The notes below the pieces were generated by a model. That model saw nothing but the letters and a program-made list of their open reading frames with translations. It was not told the origin of the DNA and searched no databases. Shown here piece by piece: positions 3,978 to 11,371 of a stretch of 64,000 nt of DNA. Made by a program: the position numbers and the translations under genes. This stretch comes from Ectothiorhodospiraceae bacterium 2226 (GTDB lineage Bacteria; Pseudomonadota; Gammaproteobacteria; GCA-013348725), in NCBI GenBank assembly GCA_013348725.1, contig CP054689.1:1972501-2036500 (forward strand), read 5' to 3'. Each line of letters opens with the position of its first letter. Within the stretch, counting starts at the first letter, position 1.

Positions 3978-4718
3978 TCAGCTACCATCGCCCGACTGCA
4001 GACGGGCGGCCCAGGGTGCGAGGTGGCGTCGCTCGCGTGGGTTGTCGACCTGGTTACGGGTCGGGCTGAAGAACACCCCGGGTGCGTGCAGCAGCTTGCT
4101 AAACGGAAACACGATCATCAGCGCGGCGACCAGGGTGAGATGGATGAGCAGCATCGCGTCGGCGGGCAGGGGCTGCCAGTCGAAGTACATCAGGCCCAGC
4201 GTGAAGGCCTTGAGCGCCACGATATCGGTGTGCCATACGTACTTCATGAGCACCCCGCTCACGCCGATGGCGACCAAGAGGCCAAGCATGAGGTGATCGG
4301 ACGGCGAGGAGATGTAGCGCACACGATCCACCAGGATGCGCCGCGCCCACAGGCCGAACAGCCCGATGAGCATGGCCCACGCGGCATAGATGCCGAATGG
4401 CTGGATCCACACGACCCAGGTCCAGACCGGCTCCTGGAAATAGCGCAGATGGCGCAGCAGCACCAGGAGCAGGGCGGCGTGGAACAGCCAGCCGAACAGC
4501 CAGATCCATTTGTTCGCCTTGAACAGGCTGGAGAACAGCGTCACCTCGCGAAGCATGCGCAGCGCGACACCGCGGCGCGTGGTCGGCGCGGGCGTGGTCG
4601 GGATCTTCAACGGCGCCGGCGTGCGGGCGTAGAGAAAGATGCGATACCCGACGCCGGCCACGAATACCAGCGTAGCCAGATAGAACAGCACCGCGTAGAA
4701 AACGCTCAGGTACGACAT
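3978..4718 (-). CDS. dsrM: DsrM, cytochrome b membrane subunit of DsrMKJOP
   Basis: The 246-residue integral membrane protein belongs to the NarI-like cytochrome b group. It has a first hydrophobic segment at residues 4-27, and further segments around 70-90, 105-125, 145-162 and 185-205. Histidines in the membrane segments could bind haem b. It anchors DsrK and handles quinone. It starts 61 nt after dsrC, and that gap contains a strong terminator-like hairpin, so dsrM and the downstream genes are probably made at a lower level than dsrC. The C-terminal tail is short and soluble, as usual for the family. Confidence 0.92.
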   Translation of the reverse strand: MSYLSVFYAVLFYLATLVFVAGVGYRIFLYARTPAPLKIPTTPAPTTRRGVALRMLREVTLFSSLFKANKWIWLFGWLFHAALLLVLLRHLRYFQEPVWTWVVWIQPFGIYAAWAMLIGLFGLWARRILVDRVRYISSPSDHLMLGLLVAIGVSGVLMKYVWHTDIVALKAFTLGLMYFDWQPLPADAMLLIHLTLVAALMIVFPFSKLLHAPGVFFSPTRNQVDNPRERRHLAPWAARLQSGDGS

Positions 4719-4740
4719 CGCTGTCCCCTTTGGAGACTCA

Positions 4741-4774
4741 CGGAAAAGCGGGCCGGGCGCGAGAGCCCGGCCCG
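4741..4774 (-). terminator. Terminator-like hairpin between dsrC and dsrM
   Basis: A perfect 10-bp inverted repeat (arms 4749-4758 and 4765-4774, CGGGCCGGGC against GCCCGGCCCG) has a 6-nt loop. Read in the direction of transcription, it lies a few bases after the dsrC stop codon and is followed by CTTTTCCG. This is a plausible partial intrinsic terminator or 3'-end stabiliser. It would let dsrABEFHC transcripts end or be protected after dsrC while some read on into dsrMKLJ. The short T tract suggests partial rather than complete termination. Confidence 0.65.
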
Positions 4775-4779
4775 TGACG

Positions 4780-5112
4780 CTACACGCAGCCGGTCGGCTT
4801 GGGCAGGCCCGCGTATTTGCACGCCTGCTTCGCGGGCCCGTAAGGGAACAGCTCGTAGAGGTACTTGCTGTTGCCCTTGTCGGGACCTAGTTTCTTGCCG
4901 ATGGCCTTGGTCAATACGCGTACCGCGGGAGCGATCTGATACTCGTCGTAGTACTCACGCAGGAAGTTGATGACCTCCCAGTGATTGTCGGAGAGATCGC
5001 AGCCATCCTGCTTGGCCATCTCCGCTGCGATCTCGGCATCCCAGTCGCTCAGATTGGCCAGGTAGCCTTCCTCGTCGGTCTCGAGGGTTCTGCCATTCAC
5101 TTCAATCGCCAT
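4780..5112 (-). CDS. dsrC: DsrC, sulfur-carrier substrate protein of reverse sulfite reductase
   Basis: This is a full-length 110-residue DsrC with both functional cysteines. Cys109 is the penultimate residue (TGCV) and Cys98 lies in the ACKYAGLP motif eleven residues earlier. In the oxidative pathway DsrC takes persulfide sulfur from DsrEFH and presents it to DsrAB; the resulting trisulfide is resolved by DsrMK. It lies 47 nt after dsrH and ends just before a hairpin, consistent with separately tuned high expression. The cysteine-free paralogue at 10736-11077 makes a useful contrast. Confidence 0.97.
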   Translation of the reverse strand: MAIEVNGRTLETDEEGYLANLSDWDAEIAAEMAKQDGCDLSDNHWEVINFLREYYDEYQIAPAVRVLTKAIGKKLGPDKGNSKYLYELFPYGPAKQACKYAGLPKPTGCV

Positions 5113-5159
5113 CGTACGTTCTCCTCGGTAAAAGTGGACCTCGGGGGACGAGCCGCCCC

Positions 5160-5468
5160 TTACAACCAGGCCTGCACGTTGTCGTGCTCCGCGACCAAGT
5201 CCACGAAGCCGCCGTAATCCACGGGCTTGATCCCTTCCATGATGTGCTCCCGGCTCATGCCGCGCGCACGCACGTCCGGCTCGAGCACGAAGAGCCGGAA
5301 GCGTTTGGCGGCCTCGCTCATCTTGTCTTGCAGTGCGTTGTCTTTGCAGGCGGCATAGACGCCGTCCTCGATGAGCAAAATGGCACTCCCCTCGGCGGCG
5401 TGCGCGAGGCAGGTACCGAGCGCGTTGCGCTCGAAGGGCGACTTATTGATTGTGTGCAGCATGGTCAT
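5160..5468 (-). CDS. dsrH: DsrH, sulfur-transfer subunit (TusB-like)
   Basis: The 102-residue protein carries a conserved Cys at position 20 (ALGTCLAHA), the site implicated in DsrEFH persulfide handling. DsrH forms the cytoplasmic alpha2beta2gamma2 DsrEFH hexamer, homologous to TusBCD, which passes sulfane sulfur to DsrC. It is 12 nt after dsrF and 47 nt before dsrC. Size, cysteine position and neighbours agree with the family. Confidence 0.93.
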   Translation of the reverse strand: MTMLHTINKSPFERNALGTCLAHAAEGSAILLIEDGVYAACKDNALQDKMSEAAKRFRLFVLEPDVRARGMSREHIMEGIKPVDYGGFVDLVAEHDNVQAWL

Positions 5469-5480
5469 GACGGATCTCCC

Positions 5481-5873
5481 TCAAAAGCTGAGTACGACGT
5501 CCTGCTGTTCCATCAGCTCCACGATCTGCTCCCGGGTCACCACCTCGACCGGAACCACCAGATCCTCCGGCGTCAGCCCGCGCTGCGTGAGGGAGTCCTT
5601 CGCTACGTAGAGCTTCTCGACGTCGTAACCTTCCAGCGCCCGGTAAGTGGGTGAGAAATTCTTCATGCCGATGCCGCCCGTCTCCTGGCCCTTCTTGAGC
5701 TGGTAGACGCCGTCGTCCAGGAACAGCAGGCTGACGTCCTGATCAAACGCGGCCGCGATGAGCACGACCTCCAGCGATTCAAGGGCGTAGATCGTGCCGT
5801 AGGGCGCCTTGCGGTTGACGTACAGGAACCGCTTGACCGGTCCGCCGTCCTCTTCCTCCCAGGGTTCTGCCAT
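5481..5873 (-). CDS. dsrF: DsrF, structural subunit of DsrEFH (TusC-like)
   Basis: The 130-residue DsrE/F-fold protein contains the family phrase RKAPYGTIYALESLE near residue 21 and a typical LDDGVYQL segment. It has no cysteine at all, so it cannot carry sulfur itself and is expected to be structural within the DsrEFH hexamer. It sits 18 nt after dsrE and 12 nt before dsrH. The acidic N-terminus (MAEPWEEEDGG) is slightly longer than in TusC. Confidence 0.92.
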   Translation of the reverse strand: MAEPWEEEDGGPVKRFLYVNRKAPYGTIYALESLEVVLIAAAFDQDVSLLFLDDGVYQLKKGQETGGIGMKNFSPTYRALEGYDVEKLYVAKDSLTQRGLTPEDLVVPVEVVTREQIVELMEQQDVVLSF

Positions 5874-5891
5874 GATTCCCCCTAAGTTGTG

Positions 5892-6284
5892 CTAATCGCC
5901 GAACACGACCAGTCGGTCGGCCTGTATGCCCGCTTCGATGAGCTGCCCCAGCCCGGAGATGCGAAACCCAGGGGCGATATTGTTGCCGTCCTTGCCATGG
6001 CGCTTCGCCTCGCTCTCATCGAGAATGCCTCGACGCTGGGCGGCGGCGACGCACACCACCATATCCAGATTGTGCGCGGCGGCGAGCTCGGACCACAGAA
6101 CGCTGAGGTTCCGATCGTCCTGCGGCGGAACGCCATAGCGGGAGCCGTTGTAAACGCCGTCGTTGTAGAAGAAAACGCGGAAGATCTCGTGACCCTTCTC
6201 GAGGGCGGCCTTGGTGAACTGATAGGCAGTATCCGAGGCCTGGTGGGTGTACGGACCCTCGTTGACCAGTATCCCGAACTTCAT
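5892..6284 (-). CDS. dsrE: DsrE, persulfide-carrying subunit of DsrEFH (TusD-like)
   Basis: The 130-residue protein has its active-site cysteine at residue 78 in VVCVAAAQRRG, the same number as the essential Cys78 of the Allochromatium protein. DsrE receives sulfur from rhodanese/TusA-type donors and relays it to DsrC. The gene starts 12 nt after the dsrB stop, so translational coupling is likely. With dsrF and dsrH it is a marker for the sulfur-oxidising rather than sulfate-reducing Dsr pathway. Confidence 0.95.
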   Translation of the reverse strand: MKFGILVNEGPYTHQASDTAYQFTKAALEKGHEIFRVFFYNDGVYNGSRYGVPPQDDRNLSVLWSELAAAHNLDMVVCVAAAQRRGILDESEAKRHGKDGNNIAPGFRISGLGQLIEAGIQADRLVVFGD

Positions 6285-6296
6285 GGCGCCCCCGCT

Positions 6297-7373
6297 CTAG
6301 AAACGGATATGGGTCGAGGCGTTGAGGCTGCTGCGCGCCCCGCGCCAGTTGTCGACGTGGTAGGTGGTGAACGGCAGCCCGGTGACCTCGAAGAACCGCG
6401 GCCAGCCGATGCGCTCGATCCAGTCGTTGACGCGCTCCCAATCGCGCGCACCCTCCTGATAGGCCTTGAGGATGCGCTTGACGATCGCGGTGGCCTCCGG
6501 CCAACGCGGCGGATTGTTCGGGATGCCGGCGGCGACCAGTTTCTGGAAGGTCGGCTTGCCGCGGGCGTTGGAGTGGTTGCCGCCGACCCAGATGGCCAAC
6601 TTGGTGTGCTCGGGGTCGTTGATCTGCATCGGCGGGCAGGGCGGATAGCAGGCGCCGCAGCAGATGCACTTCTTCTCGTCCACTTCCAGCGAGGGCTTGC
6701 CGTTGACCAGCGCGGGGCGGATCGCCGCCACCGGGCAGCGCGCCACCACGGATGGGCGCTCGCAGACGTTGGACACCAGGTCGTGATTGATCTTGGGTGG
6801 CTTGGTGTGCTGCACGTTGATGGCAATGTCGCCCTGGCCGCCGCAGTTGATCTGGCAGCAGGAGGTGGTGATGTGCACGCGGTTGGGCATGCGGCAGGTG
6901 CGGAACTCGTCGATCAGTTCGTCCATCATCGCCTTCACCACGCCGGAGGCGTCGGTGCCGGGGATGTCGCAGTGCAGCCAGCCTTGCGTGTGCGAGATCA
7001 TGCTCACCGAGTTGGCGGTACCGCCCACCACAAAGCCGGCATCCTCGAGCGCCTTCACCAGCGGCTCTACCTTGGCGCCGTCGGAGACCATGTACTCGAT
7101 GTTGGACCGGATGGTGAAACGTACGTAACCCTCGGCGTACTTGTCGCCGATGTCGCACAGCTTGCGTAGCGTGAACACGTCCAGGATGCGCTGCGTGCCG
7201 GCCTTCACGGTCCAGATCTGGTCGCCGTGGTGGGAGACGTGGCGCAGCACACCGGGGCGCGGATGGTCGTGATACTTCCACTGCCCATAGTTGCGCCGCA
7301 TCACGGGGTGCATGTACTGGAAGCCGTCCGGACAGCCGGACTCAATCGGGGTACGCATATCCGCTAATGCCAT
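6297..7373 (-). CDS. dsrB: DsrB, beta subunit of reverse-type dissimilatory sulfite reductase
   Basis: The 358-residue subunit shows the sirohaem/[4Fe-4S] region around TTSCCQINCGGQGD and a ferredoxin domain with CICCGACYPPCPP. It pairs with DsrA as the alpha2beta2 enzyme that oxidises DsrC-bound sulfide sulfur to the sulfite level in the cytoplasm. A TAGGAGG ribosome-binding site precedes the ATG at 7373, in a 46-nt gap after dsrA. The length is normal for the family. Confidence 0.97.
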   Translation of the reverse strand: MALADMRTPIESGCPDGFQYMHPVMRRNYGQWKYHDHPRPGVLRHVSHHGDQIWTVKAGTQRILDVFTLRKLCDIGDKYAEGYVRFTIRSNIEYMVSDGAKVEPLVKALEDAGFVVGGTANSVSMISHTQGWLHCDIPGTDASGVVKAMMDELIDEFRTCRMPNRVHITTSCCQINCGGQGDIAINVQHTKPPKINHDLVSNVCERPSVVARCPVAAIRPALVNGKPSLEVDEKKCICCGACYPPCPPMQINDPEHTKLAIWVGGNHSNARGKPTFQKLVAAGIPNNPPRWPEATAIVKRILKAYQEGARDWERVNDWIERIGWPRFFEVTGLPFTTYHVDNWRGARSSLNASTHIRF

Positions 7374-7419: not shown

Positions 7420-8685
7420 TCAGACGGACGCCTGCTGTTTCGCTTCCAGTTTGCGCCGGTACCATTCTTCGGCCTGTTCGTCCCAGCCGTCGGTGCGCAC
7501 GTAGGAGCTTTGGCGCGGATGGGAAACCATGTGCGGGTCGACGTCCACGCCGATGCCCTCGAGGAAATTGACCAGACCGATGCGCTCGATCATTTCACCG
7601 CAGCGCTCATGCTCGAGGCCGTTCTCCGCCCAGAAGTCGATGATGTTCTCGGCCATCTCGGTGAGGCGCTGGTAGTCCTCTTCGGTCTCCATCTTCATGA
7701 AGGGCACGACTACGGTGCCCATCAGGTCGCCGATCTTGAGGGTGCGCTTGCCGCCAATCAGCACGGTGATGCCCTTGTCGTCGCCAGGCGAGAGCGCGGT
7801 GGGCATGACGTTCAGGCAGTGCATGCAGCGCACACAATCGTGGTCGTCGACGGTGAGGGTGTCGTCGTCGTTCAGGGTCATGCAGTTGGTGGGGCAGCGC
7901 GTGGTGACGTTGTCGATCACGTACTGTCGACCCTTGCGCGCCACGTATGCCTTGACCTCGTCCTGGTCGATCTTCATCGCGTCGCGCCAGGTGCCGATGA
8001 TGGCGAAGTCGGAGCGTTCGATGGAGTTCACGCAGTCGTTTGGGCAACCCGACACCTTGAACTTGAATTTGTAGGGCAGCGCCGGGCGGTGCACATCGTC
8101 GGTGAAGCGGTTCAGCAGCGAGCGGTGTATGGAGTGCTCATTGCAGCAGGACTGCTCGCAGCGCGCCGCGCCCACGCAGGACATGCCGGTGCGCACGCAG
8201 GGGCCGGCGCCGCCGAGGTCCCAGCCGTACTCGTTGATCTCGTCGAAGAAGTGCTGGGTGTTCTCGGTGGTGGTGCCGATGAACATGATGTTGCCGGTCT
8301 GGCCGTGGAAGGTCACCAGCCCCGAACCCCACTTCTCCCAGCTTTCGCCGAGCTGGCGGAGCATGTCGGTGGTGTAGAAATTGCCGGCCGGCGGCTGCAC
8401 GCGCAGGGTGTGGAATTCTTTGGATTCGGGGAAGGCCGCGCCGACTTCCGAGAAGCGCGGGATAATGCCGCCGCCGTAGCCGTATACGCTGACCGTGCCG
8501 CCCTTCCAGTAGCCCTTACGGGTTTCATAGGAGTGCTCGAGCTGACCCAGGAGCGAGTTGGCGACGCTTTGGATGCGTTCGTCGGGATGCTGATCACGCA
8601 GGCGCTTGATGCCGGAAATGAAGCTGGGCCAGGGGCCGTTCTCCAGCTCGTCCAGCATGGGCGTTTCGTGGACTTTCTTCGCCAT
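7420..8685 (-). CDS. dsrA: DsrA, alpha subunit of reverse-type dissimilatory sulfite reductase
   Basis: The 421-residue subunit carries the coupled sirohaem/[4Fe-4S] cysteines (SCVGAARCEQSC and SGCPNDC), followed by a ferredoxin domain (CVRCMHCLNVMP). It is the catalytic partner of DsrB. The ATG at 8683-8685 is preceded by AAGGAG. It is the first gene of the operon and faces a 375-nt region shared with a divergent sulfur-related unit. All catalytic motifs are intact. Confidence 0.97.
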   Translation of the reverse strand: MAKKVHETPMLDELENGPWPSFISGIKRLRDQHPDERIQSVANSLLGQLEHSYETRKGYWKGGTVSVYGYGGGIIPRFSEVGAAFPESKEFHTLRVQPPAGNFYTTDMLRQLGESWEKWGSGLVTFHGQTGNIMFIGTTTENTQHFFDEINEYGWDLGGAGPCVRTGMSCVGAARCEQSCCNEHSIHRSLLNRFTDDVHRPALPYKFKFKVSGCPNDCVNSIERSDFAIIGTWRDAMKIDQDEVKAYVARKGRQYVIDNVTTRCPTNCMTLNDDDTLTVDDHDCVRCMHCLNVMPTALSPGDDKGITVLIGGKRTLKIGDLMGTVVVPFMKMETEEDYQRLTEMAENIIDFWAENGLEHERCGEMIERIGLVNFLEGIGVDVDPHMVSHPRQSSYVRTDGWDEQAEEWYRRKLEAKQQASV

Positions 8686-9060
8686 GGCTAAACTCCTTGT
8701 TGAGATAGGGTCCGGTCAACGCGAGCCGGGACGATCAACGGTGGGCCCCGCGCACCAGGATCGATCGCATTCATGCGGCGGCCCGGCCGGTGCCCTGAGA
8801 CACGCCTTCATGGCGTGTCGACGCAGTGGTTCGTTCATGGAAGTCTATGAACAGCGGTGCACGGCGAACACCCTACCTAAGGGATGTTCGAGGTCGGCAG
8901 GGGATTACCCACAATGGGATATGAGCCTGCGTCGGCGCTGACACTAAACTATCGCGTCAGACATCCCAGTTGAGCGGTCGGGCGACTTCCCTGCGGCGCT
9001 GGTCCAGCGTTGCCGCGACACGCGCGGCGACCGCCGTCGACACACCGGGAGCGAGGGAGG
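8686..9060. promoter_or_regulatory. Divergent control region between dsrA and the dioxygenase/Cas6/RspA unit
   Basis: This 375-nt stretch has no convincing gene. It holds a perfect 8-bp inverted repeat (8799-8806 and 8812-8819, GACACGCC/GGCGTGTC, 5-nt loop). It also holds an 8-bp repeat with one G-T pair (8833-8840 and 8845-8852, GTTCATGG/CTATGAAC, 4-nt loop) and an imperfect CTGAC...GTCAG repeat near 8938-8962. These could be operators for a dsr regulator, or hairpins in the dsr leader RNA. I could not pick out a convincing sigma-70 promoter on either strand, so an activator-dependent promoter is possible. Confidence 0.6.
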
Positions 9061-9996
9061 ATGGCCACGGCAACGAAGCACACAGCCGCCGTCCGGCAGC
9101 GGCACGGCGGCCCGTTCGATTTGGACGACGAGCGTGCCTACCGGCGCTGGCGCGAGGCGAAGCTGCGCCGCTACCCGGCGCGTGCGGCGGATATCACTGT
9201 GCCGGTGCACGATGCGTGGCGGGTGAGCGTCGGCGAGCGGCGCGCGCTGGGCGCACTGCTCGCGAAGACGAACGTGGCTGTGGTTCGCCTGCCCCCTGAC
9301 CATCCCCTGGACCAAACGCTGGTGCGCGCGCTGGGAAGCCAGCTCGGCTTGCGCCGCCTGGATCGCAATCCCCAGGCGGGGGAGGACGGCGTCAGCCTAT
9401 TGTCGGCGCGGGACGAGGCGGGCGGGCCCGAGTTCATCCCCTATACCCGGCGTGCCTTGAGTTGGCATACCGACGGCTACTACAACACCGCGGCGCGCCA
9501 GGTCCGCGGCCTGATCATGTTCTGCGTCGAGCCCGCCGCCACCGGCGGTGACAACGCGCTGCTCGACCCCGAACTCGCCTATTTGTGGCTGCGCGACCAC
9601 GACCCCGCGCTGGTCGCGGCGCTGATGCACCCGCGCGCGATGACCATACCGGCGCACGAACAGGACGGTCGGGTGCTGCGCCCGGCGCGCAGCGGGCCCG
9701 TCTTCTCGGTCGATGAACGCGGCGCGTTGCACATGCGGTATACGGCCCGGCGCCATTCGGTCGCATGGCGCGACGACGCGCAGACCCGCTCGGCCGTGGC
9801 TTTCTTGCAGGGCATCCTGAGCGACGAGGGGCTTCCCCATCGGTTTCGGTACACGCTGCGCGCCGGGGAGGGCATCGTGTGCAACAACGTGCTGCACAAC
9901 CGCAGCGCGTTCGAGGACGACGCGGCGGAGGGGCGCGTGCGCCGAATGTATCGGGCGCGCTACTACGAACGCGTCGATGTCGGTGTGGCGGCCTAG
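9061..9996 (+). CDS. TauD/TfdA-like Fe(II)/2-oxoglutarate dioxygenase, substrate unknown
   Basis: The 311-residue protein has the 2-His-1-carboxylate iron site of this family: His136 and Asp138 in SWHTDGYYN, and a distal His279 in CNNVLHNR. An arginine near residue 295 probably binds 2-oxoglutarate. Enzymes of this fold hydroxylate and often desulfonate their substrates, but the substrate here cannot be read from sequence. I prefer the ATG at 9061, directly after a GAGGGAGG stretch, to an in-frame TTG at 9010. It is the first gene of a unit with an orphan Cas6 (6-nt gap), a DsrC-like protein and a small protein, divergent from dsrA. That suggests a role in organic or inorganic sulfur handling rather than taurine use; no taurine transporter is present. 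Confidence 0.8.
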   Translation: MATATKHTAAVRQRHGGPFDLDDERAYRRWREAKLRRYPARAADITVPVHDAWRVSVGERRALGALLAKTNVAVVRLPPDHPLDQTLVRALGSQLGLRRLDRNPQAGEDGVSLLSARDEAGGPEFIPYTRRALSWHTDGYYNTAARQVRGLIMFCVEPAATGGDNALLDPELAYLWLRDHDPALVAALMHPRAMTIPAHEQDGRVLRPARSGPVFSVDERGALHMRYTARRHSVAWRDDAQTRSAVAFLQGILSDEGLPHRFRYTLRAGEGIVCNNVLHNRSAFEDDAAEGRVRRMYRARYYERVDVGVAA

Positions 9997-10002
9997 GCGC
10001 GC

Positions 10003-10692
10003 ATGCTCTGGCAAGACGAAATCGAGGAGGACGGCGCCCCGGCATACGCCCCCGACGTCGTTGATCTGGTATTTCGCATCGAATGCCGGACGTTGCCCGT
10101 GGATCATGCGCACGCACTCAGCCGCGCGGTGCTGACCGCCTTGCCGTGGTTGGACAAGGAGCCGCGCGCGGGCATCCATACGGTGCATCCGGCGGCCTCC
10201 GGCAACGGCTGGTACCGACCCGAGGACCCGGGCGAGGGGCTGCTGCACCTGTCCCGGCGCACGCCGCTCATGCTGCGCCTGCCGCGCGAGCGCATCGAGG
10301 CCGCGCGCACCTTGTGCGGTCGGGTGCTGGACATCGACGGCCACCCGATGGCGGTAGGCGAGGCGCACGAGCGGCGCCTCGCTGCGCAGCCGACGCTATT
10401 CGCGCGCGCGGTGCTGCATCCGCCTGCGATGGCGGAGCTCGCGCTGGTCGAAAGCGTCGCCGAGCAGTTGCACCGCATGGGCATCGCCCCGCGCAAGATC
10501 CTGTGCGGCCGCCGCCACCGGCTTCGTACGCCCGCGCAGGACCTGCATGCATGCAGCGTGTTGGTGGCCGATCTGCAGCCCGCGGACGCCATCGAACTGC
10601 AGCGGCAGGGCATCGGCGAGGGCCGCCGCCTGGGCTGCGGCCTGTTCATCGGCCACAAAGGTGTGGCGCCCGTAAAACGACCGGACGATTAA
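10003..10692 (+). CDS. Orphan Cas6/Cmx6-family (I-MYXAN type) RNA endonuclease-like protein
   Basis: The 229-residue protein matches the Cmx6 form of Cas6. It has the N-terminal RTLPVDHAHAL segment (residues 29-39), a VLDIDGHPMAVGE strand pair near 108-120, and the diagnostic glycine-rich loop GIGEGRRLGCGLFIGHKG (residues 203-220). Cas6 proteins bind and cut small hairpins in CRISPR precursor RNA. No other cas gene and no repeat-spacer array is visible in the window. The gene is 6 nt after the dioxygenase and 43 nt before a DsrC paralogue, so it belongs to a sulfur-linked operon. Histidines at 35, 62, 82 and 218 could serve catalysis, but none is assigned. The family call is strong; the function in this setting is unknown. 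Confidence 0.85.
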   Translation: MLWQDEIEEDGAPAYAPDVVDLVFRIECRTLPVDHAHALSRAVLTALPWLDKEPRAGIHTVHPAASGNGWYRPEDPGEGLLHLSRRTPLMLRLPRERIEAARTLCGRVLDIDGHPMAVGEAHERRLAAQPTLFARAVLHPPAMAELALVESVAEQLHRMGIAPRKILCGRRHRLRTPAQDLHACSVLVADLQPADAIELQRQGIGEGRRLGCGLFIGHKGVAPVKRPDD

Positions 10693-10735
10693 TCGCCGCC
10701 GCGCATGCGGGCGCACGAGGAGAGGGAGGGGGAGT

Positions 10736-11077
10736 ATGAGCGTAGAAGTGGATGGCAAGTCCTTACCGACCAATGCCAACGGCTATCTCGACAACGTCGA
10801 GGACTGGAGCGAGACGGTGGCCGTGGCGATGGCTGCTAAGGAGGGTCTGGAGCTGACGCCGCGCCATTGGGATGTGATCAAGTATCTGCGCGAAGAGTAC
10901 TTCGACAACAACGGTAACCAGCCGAACACGCGCAGCATCGTGAAGGCCATGCAGGAGGCGTGGGACGACCGTTCGGTGGAGGCGCGCTCCCTGTACGAGC
11001 TATTCCCCCACGATCCCAGCAAACAGGCGGGACGGATCGCAGGGCTGCCCGAAAGCCGGCGCAAGGGCGGTTACTGA
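10736..11077 (+). CDS. RspA-type DsrC paralogue without redox cysteines
   Basis: The 113-residue protein belongs to the TusE/DsrC/DsvC family: it opens with the EVDGKSLPTNANGYL motif and keeps TPRHWDVIKYLREEYF and LYELFPHDPSKQAG. Both DsrC cysteines are absent: ACKYAGLP is replaced by AGRIAGLP, and the tail ends ESRRKGGY instead of GCV. It therefore cannot form the DsrC disulfide or trisulfide. Such forms have been called RspA and proposed as regulators, since DsrC has a helix-turn-helix-like region. A strong GAGAGGGAGG site precedes the ATG. It lies in the same unit as the dioxygenase and Cas6-like genes. A regulatory or decoy role is inference. Confidence 0.88.
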   Translation: MSVEVDGKSLPTNANGYLDNVEDWSETVAVAMAAKEGLELTPRHWDVIKYLREEYFDNNGNQPNTRSIVKAMQEAWDDRSVEARSLYELFPHDPSKQAGRIAGLPESRRKGGY

Positions 11078-11167
11078 ACCGACGCCGATACACCTTCGGA
11101 GATATGGAGGGCGGGCGTAGGCCGATGTAAGGTCTCTTCAAGCCCGCCGTTGCGAGGAGAGTTGATC

Positions 11168-11371
11168 ATGTCCGAGAAGCAAGAGCTGATCAAAAAGATG
11201 CTGGAGATGCAGAAGCGCTTCATTGCCTACGAGCAGGAGCACGGACTCGATCCCGAGGAGTATTACGTGCCCGCCGAGAATCATCCGCTGCACAACTACC
11301 GCCAGGAGTACAAGGAGGCGGCAATGAGGGTGGTGGAACTCGCGCACGCCGAGAAGGGTTCCCGCAGCTAA
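11168..11371 (+). CDS. Small helical protein of unknown function, 67 aa
   Basis: The reading frame from the ATG at 11168 follows a GCGAGGAGA ribosome-binding site 7 nt upstream. The product is strongly charged and predicted mostly helical (KKMLEMQKRFIAYEQEH, then YRQEYKEAAMRVVELAH), with a central LDPEEYYVP segment. It has no membrane segment and no cysteine. It ends the four-gene unit, 90 nt after the DsrC paralogue. I believe similar small proteins sit near dsr or DsrC-like genes in other sulfur oxidisers, but this is from memory. No function is assigned. Confidence 0.75.
   Translation: MSEKQELIKKMLEMQKRFIAYEQEHGLDPEEYYVPAENHPLHNYRQEYKEAAMRVVELAHAEKGSRS

Follow-up and report, generated by a model that had tools for sequence, protein, structure and literature searches.

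A CRISPR-family RNA enzyme appears to have been co-opted for sulfur metabolism in gammaproteobacteria

Nearly every gammaproteobacterium that oxidizes sulfur with reverse Dsr carries one Cas6-family protein. Elsewhere such RNA-processing proteins serve CRISPR immunity; here the protein sits without CRISPR beside the sulfur genes, so it seems that sulfur metabolism has adopted an RNA enzyme of immunity. By sequence comparison, the protein belongs to one clade, is present in single copy, and is co-inherited with dsrAB, usually in a unit TauD-(S60)-(T235)-Cas6-DsrC paralogue-(P67) that is divergent from dsrA.

Results

A four-gene unit diverges from dsrA

We analyzed 64,000 nt of Ectothiorhodospiraceae bacterium 2226 (GCA_013348725.1, CP054689.1 positions 1,972,501-2,036,500, forward strand), here called the window; the genome is a single contig of 2.96 Mb. 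A sequence-only reading of this DNA had described a four-gene plus-strand unit at 9061-11371, with gaps of 6, 43, and 90 nt, that diverges from dsrA and encodes members of the TauD, Cas6/Cmx6, and DsrC families. On re-checking, the coordinates were exact, dsrA lay on the minus strand, and the family calls agreed with the scores for PF02668, for PF09559 and TIGR02807, and for PF04358. The unit and, on the opposite strand, the dsrABEFHCM genes are as follows.

9061..9996, plus strand: TauD/TfdA-type Fe(II)/2-oxoglutarate dioxygenase (PF02668, 71 bits; intact HxD...H...R motif)
10003..10692, plus strand: Cas6 (PF09559, Cas6/Cmx6 type) of a CRISPR-independent clade (profiles, AF2 model, fold match)
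10736..11077, plus strand: cysteine-free DsrC paralogue ("RspA-like"), with C-terminal RKGGY replacing the Cys arm (PF04358, 117 bits)
11168..11371, plus strand: P67, a two-helix protein of 67 aa without a known family (homologues in 66 loci; model pLDDT 93.5)
7420..8685, minus strand: dsrA, reverse dissimilatory sulfite reductase alpha (TIGR02064, 632 bits)
6297..7373, minus strand: dsrB
4780..6284, minus strand: dsrE, dsrF, and dsrH, plus the true dsrC, which keeps both C-terminal Cys
3978..4718, minus strand: dsrM

TauD residues H153, D155, H296, R311, and R315 (numbered from the ORF that starts at 9010) lie in columns that are at least 90% conserved among 91 homologues. The DsrC paralogue had been described as cysteine-free, and the protein indeed contains no Cys and ends in RKGGY; it lacks the two C-terminal Cys, one of them penultimate, that define a DsrC sulfur carrier. 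Of 102 such paralogues, 93 lack Cys throughout their last 16 residues, and the penultimate Cys survives in 2. P67 matched no Pfam or NCBIfam family in a profile search. Its model is a helical hairpin, and a fold search against the PDB gave no significant match. Most relatives have a further small gene, S60, separating TauD from Cas6; the window genome lacks it.

The Cas6 protein retains the features of an RNA protein

The Cas6 protein scored above the curated cut-offs of both PF09559 (202.2 bits; cut-off, 26.7) and TIGR02807 Cas6/Cmx6 (114.6 bits; cut-off, 98.85). Its AF2 model (pLDDT 89.7) predicts the Cas6 fold, with two ferredoxin-like halves, and the top structural matches of the model were Cas6 structures, the first being the type I-B CAST Cas6 8fcj_B (Z 24.7; rmsd 2.1 over 198 residues). 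The glycine-rich loop, previously called intact, is present near the C terminus as G203, G205, G211, and G213, each at least 98% conserved among 122 homologues. Two candidate catalytic histidines, H35 and H59, are found in 121 and 114 of these 122 homologues, respectively. H35 is invariant in seven CRISPR-family relatives; H59 is not, yet 8fcj_B has His at that position. K165, a candidate catalytic lysine, is conserved as well. The conserved glycine loop, His, and Lys are typical of an RNA protein, and together with the predicted fold they fit a putative RNA endonuclease or RNA binder. The dN/dS between close pairs was 0.03-0.21, which points to purifying selection.

In a phylogenetic tree, one branch (SH-aLRT 99) separated dsr-linked from CRISPR-linked Cas6 proteins, the latter being a small sample, mostly cyanobacterial (plasmids), plus 8fcj_B. 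Positions specific to the dsr-linked clade are W3, an SGNGW insertion at 66-70, R86, E145, K165, and a PHKG end. A weak hit in Fertoeibacter (L053) was rejected, as there was no Cas6 ORF at the site. The Cas6/Cmx6-family gene of Gloeobacter morelensis plasmid pGMOR1 (L160) was put in the CRISPR group by family, and its 6.6-kb stretch shows no cas neighbors; it lies beside a PAPS-reductase-family gene and is possibly a further non-CRISPR use.

The Cas6 loci lack CRISPR components

The sequence-only reading had reported neither another cas gene nor a CRISPR array. A profile search of the window genome found one PF09559 protein and no match to Cas1 or DevR/Cas7; the Cas3 core profile gave only matches below the cut-off, as it also did in control genomes. 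Homologues of cas3, cas8, cas7, cas5, cas1, and cas2 were absent from every examined Cas6 locus near dsr, whereas CRISPR-linked controls were positive. Similarly, neither the window nor any examined Cas6 locus near dsr yielded an array in our scans, which did find arrays in two controls (L161 and L163), so the reported absence of an array holds within that scope. The type I-MYXAN component set (Cas3, Cas8/Cmx8, Cas7, Cas5, Cas1, and Cas2) is not assembled at the window locus, and the cas gene searches gave no complete I-MYXAN locus elsewhere in the genome. The presence of PF09559 is independent of Cas1, which was found in 50 of 117 genomes with PF09559 and in 86 of 252 without it (odds ratio, 1.4; p 0.13). 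The other 67 of the 117, among them the window genome, had no Cas1 match. Independence from Cas1 and the lack of cas genes and arrays at the loci strongly support the recruitment of this Cas6 outside CRISPR, as the sequence-only reading had supposed.

Cas6 co-occurs with dsrA

We compared the distributions of PF09559 and dsrA (called at E < 1e-30) among 369 genomes of the class. PF09559 was found in 117 and dsrA in 118: 110 genomes had both, 7 had Cas6 only, 8 had dsrA only, and 244 had neither (Fisher p 1.5e-74; odds ratio, 479, for a sample from one class, whose lineages are not independent). PF09559 gave a single match in 116 of the 117 genomes, the exception being a protein split into two fragments. 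The one-sided cases are weak: most come from incomplete genomes, from short contigs, or from the ends of contigs. Among the seven genomes with Cas6 only (loci L078, L119, and L140-L144), six have the unit near a contig end or on a short contig, and in the seventh (G317) DsrAB adjoins the unit. On the other side, dsrA is at a contig end in G206, G109, and G210; G122 has T235-S60-TauD on the dsr contig, at the contig end; and the remaining dsrA-only genomes are 55-88% complete.

Three families (f2, f32, and f107) include genomes with and without dsr, and Cas6 tracks dsr in each. Cas6 lies far from dsr in several genomes (e.g., G108 and G324), and five genomes of only 1.0-1.1 Mb (G038, G141, G254, G286, and G350) retain Cas6 with no Cas1 match. 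Co-occurrence, synteny, and retention when unlinked or in reduced genomes strongly support the functional tie of Cas6 to Dsr sulfur oxidation that had been suggested from the window.

The unit is conserved in other sulfur oxidizers

The four genes had been read as one unit in a single genome. Our gene-neighborhood survey found the order conserved in other sulfur oxidizers, and the TauD-Cas6-DsrC paralogue-P67 arrangement is a conserved unit. The full order dsrAB< TauD> S60> Cas6> DsrC-paralogue> P67> was found in 32 loci. Another 20 loci have T235 in the unit and no detected P67, and 8 more such loci also lack a detected TauD. Three deeper-branching loci (L137-L139) have Cas6 itself divergent from dsrAB, and the paralogue and TauD lie downstream of it. 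The other loci are truncated or have a rearranged order. S60 (about 62 aa, with a conserved DVKPPFPDTPxDWE) occupies the TauD-Cas6 gap (e.g., in L076 and L081), which in many loci also holds T235 (about 235 aa). Neither S60 nor the scanned N-terminal part of T235 matched a Pfam or NCBIfam family. Terminator-like hairpins occur 3′ of P67 in many loci.

A predicted two-site operator lies between dsrA and tauD

The dsrA-tauD gap of the window contains a predicted promoter and two dyads, as follows.

8840..8849, minus strand: predicted -10 box of dsrA, reading CATAGACTTC on that strand (consensus CCTAGACTTC)
8870..8887, no strand: operator element 1, ACCCTACCTAAGGGATGT (consensus ACCCTACCcATGGGGTGT), with its center near -44 of the predicted dsrA start
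8905..8922, no strand: operator element 2, TTACCCACAATGGGATAT (consensus CTATCCC-N4-GGGATAG)

This arrangement at 8840-8922, a -10-like box and two dyads at fixed spacing, is nearly unique to the dsrA-tauD gap. The -10-like box is exactly 30 bp from element 1 in 34 of 39 loci having the motif. In 50 of the 51 loci with both dyads, 14-17 bp lie between them, and the center of element 2 is about 33 bp from that of element 1 in most loci (35 bp in the window). With one core mismatch at most, element 2 was found in 56 of 88 dsrA-tauD gaps; first-order Markov shuffles gave an expectation of 1.8. The exact palindrome occurs 13 times in 16 genomes, 10 of them in the dsrA-tauD gap, and reversed-pattern controls gave zero. 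Related sites also lie 5′ of P67, including in units unlinked from dsr. Since the spacing of the -10 box is fixed relative to element 1, the dyads would be centered near -44 and -77 relative to the dsrA start, positions that would suit an activator.

With its look of a 6- to 7-bp stem and a tetraloop, CTATCCC-N4-GGGATAG was also considered as a hairpin substrate of Cas6. However, stem deviations to G.T (24) and A.C (27) showed no strand bias of wobble pairs. Because the wobble asymmetry is absent and the spacing is fixed, we rejected the hairpin; the two-dyad element behaves as a predicted DNA operator. According to PMC5944118, citing Grimm et al. 2010, A. vinosum DsrC reportedly binds DNA upstream of the dsr cluster; the DsrC paralogue is thus a candidate operator binder.

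Candidate RNA substrates of Cas6

No Rfam family matched in the window, and the gap between Cas6 and the paralogue showed no excess RNA structure. The predicted leader of dsrA (z -0.84) was no more structured than the next 45 nt (-0.74), and a hairpin there was discarded as a candidate. The dsrC-dsrM gap, about 4719-4779 in the window, has a strong GC-rich hairpin in most loci (mean z -3.5), which perhaps stabilizes dsrC mRNA. We rejected it as a Cas6 substrate: in 10 loci that bear Cas6 it is absent or weak, and some loci that lack Cas6 have it. These searches found no conserved hairpin specific to Cas6-dsr loci. The sequence-only reading had suggested that Cas6 was recruited to process or bind a cellular RNA in control of sulfur oxidation. 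The recruitment and the tie to dsr stand; the RNA role and the control are still conjectural, the searches having yielded no substrate.

dsr loci outside the class

Of 299 genomes sampled across the phylum, 52 have dsrA. Four of these are inside the class, all with Cas6; none of the 48 outside it has PF09559. Five of the outside loci that we fetched have dsrABEFHCM clusters, and TauD-S60 is divergent from dsrA in four of them. These loci, which seem to be alphaproteobacterial, have no Cas6, no DsrC paralogue, and no exact operator palindrome. Because they have TauD-S60 without Cas6 or the paralogue, TauD-S60 may be the older companion of reverse dsr, with Cas6 and the paralogue added in this class. 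In L170-L172, TauD-S60 is followed by a gene for a CysG-like siroheme synthase. Many of the remaining outside loci have no dsrEFH nearby and are probably reductive types.

Discussion

We propose that a Cas6-family RNA protein left CRISPR, became a fixed dsr accessory, and acts on RNA of the dsr regulon, tuning dsr together with the DsrC paralogue; we regard the chances of this proposal as evenly balanced. A single recruitment event would have brought Cas6 into a module that controls dsr. The protein would still bind one particular cellular RNA and probably cut it, the likeliest candidate being a dsr-regulon transcript. The cysteine-free paralogue may be a sensor or a DNA-binding partner at the two-site operator, and the two proteins would tune dsr expression to sulfur supply. 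We infer the RNA target, the cleavage, the partner interaction, and the regulatory sense. The more specific claim, that a domesticated Cas6 endoribonuclease is a post-transcriptional regulator of the reverse Dsr operon across Gammaproteobacteria, acting with the paralogue, is plausible and falls a little below an even chance. The working of dsr without Cas6 in other classes counts against our proposal.

The main rival is a maturation module, in which Cas6, TauD, S60, and the DsrC paralogue help to assemble or modify sulfite reductase or siroheme and Cas6 is a protein scaffold or the binder of a minor RNA. The conserved active-site residues of TauD are consistent with it, as are the CysG-like gene that follows TauD-S60 in the alphaproteobacteria-like loci, themselves without Cas6, and a CysG homologue that three Thioalkalivibrio loci have at a distance of about 4-5 kb. 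However, no CysG lies close to the unit in the other loci searched, a shared operator suggests regulation, and the conserved Cas6 residues are those of an RNA protein. We consider this explanation unlikely, though the strongest of the alternatives.

It is more doubtful still that the unit serves tRNA, in a scheme where Cas6 binds or trims a tRNA and both the dioxygenase and the DsrC/TusE paralogue belong to a modification pathway related to TusBCDE. DsrEFH and DsrC are homologous to TusBCD and TusE, whose sulfur goes into tRNA 2-thiouridine (PMC3397948), but the paralogue has lost the sulfur-carrying cysteines, and the presence of Cas6 tracks dsrA rather than a general need of tRNA.

Processing of crRNA in trans, for arrays elsewhere in a split system, is suggested by the family itself (TIGR02807 defines the Cas6 of type I-MYXAN) and by the 50 Cas6 genomes with Cas1, but it is contradicted by the independence from Cas1 (67 of 117 genomes, including that of the window, and the reduced genomes have no match), by loci free of cas genes and arrays, and by co-occurrence with dsrA, and we think it very improbable. 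Equally hard to credit is a functionless Cas6 carried with dsr by linkage alone: linkage to dsrA is usual, but the low dN/dS, the residue conservation, and the retention of Cas6 when unlinked and in 1.0- to 1.1-Mb genomes all argue against a relic.

If confirmed, the proposed role of Cas6 in dsr control would clearly exemplify the conversion of a CRISPR RNA nuclease into a metabolic component, one that is common across a group important to the sulfur cycle, including genomes of reduced, symbiont size. It would also offer a handle on the regulation of dsr, which is poorly understood. An "I-MYXAN Cas6" annotation in a dsr genome should not count as evidence of CRISPR. We found no paper linking Cas6 with dsr in a literature search that covered few subscription journals. 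Genome papers mention extra DsrC-like proteins near dsr without remark on Cas6 (PMC5944118 and PMC10892978).

Three known systems bear comparison with the unit. In the TusBCDE relay of tRNA 2-thiouridine synthesis, the likeness lies in the neighbors, DsrEFH-DsrC being homologous to TusBCD-TusE; in contrast, the paralogue of the unit cannot carry a persulfide at the usual Cys. We know of no part played by Cas6 or TauD in the Tus relay. Within the DsrC/TusE/DsvC family, the window paralogue shares profile and length with the Cys-less members, which are said to have been called RspA by Venceslau and colleagues in 2014. Unlike DsrC itself, it has lost both redox Cys, has a conserved RKGGY end, and is encoded directly after Cas6. 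With the Cas6/Cmx6 of type I-MYXAN and the Cas6 of type I-B CAST, the dsr-linked Cas6 shares the PF09559/TIGR02807 family, the fold, and the glycine-rich loop, and its DH motif, where helix 1 begins, recurs in the plasmid relatives. It differs from CRISPR-linked Cas6 in being only about 25% identical, in having its own clade-specific residues and no cas genes or array nearby, and, compared with I-MYXAN Cas6, in a presence that tracks dsrA.
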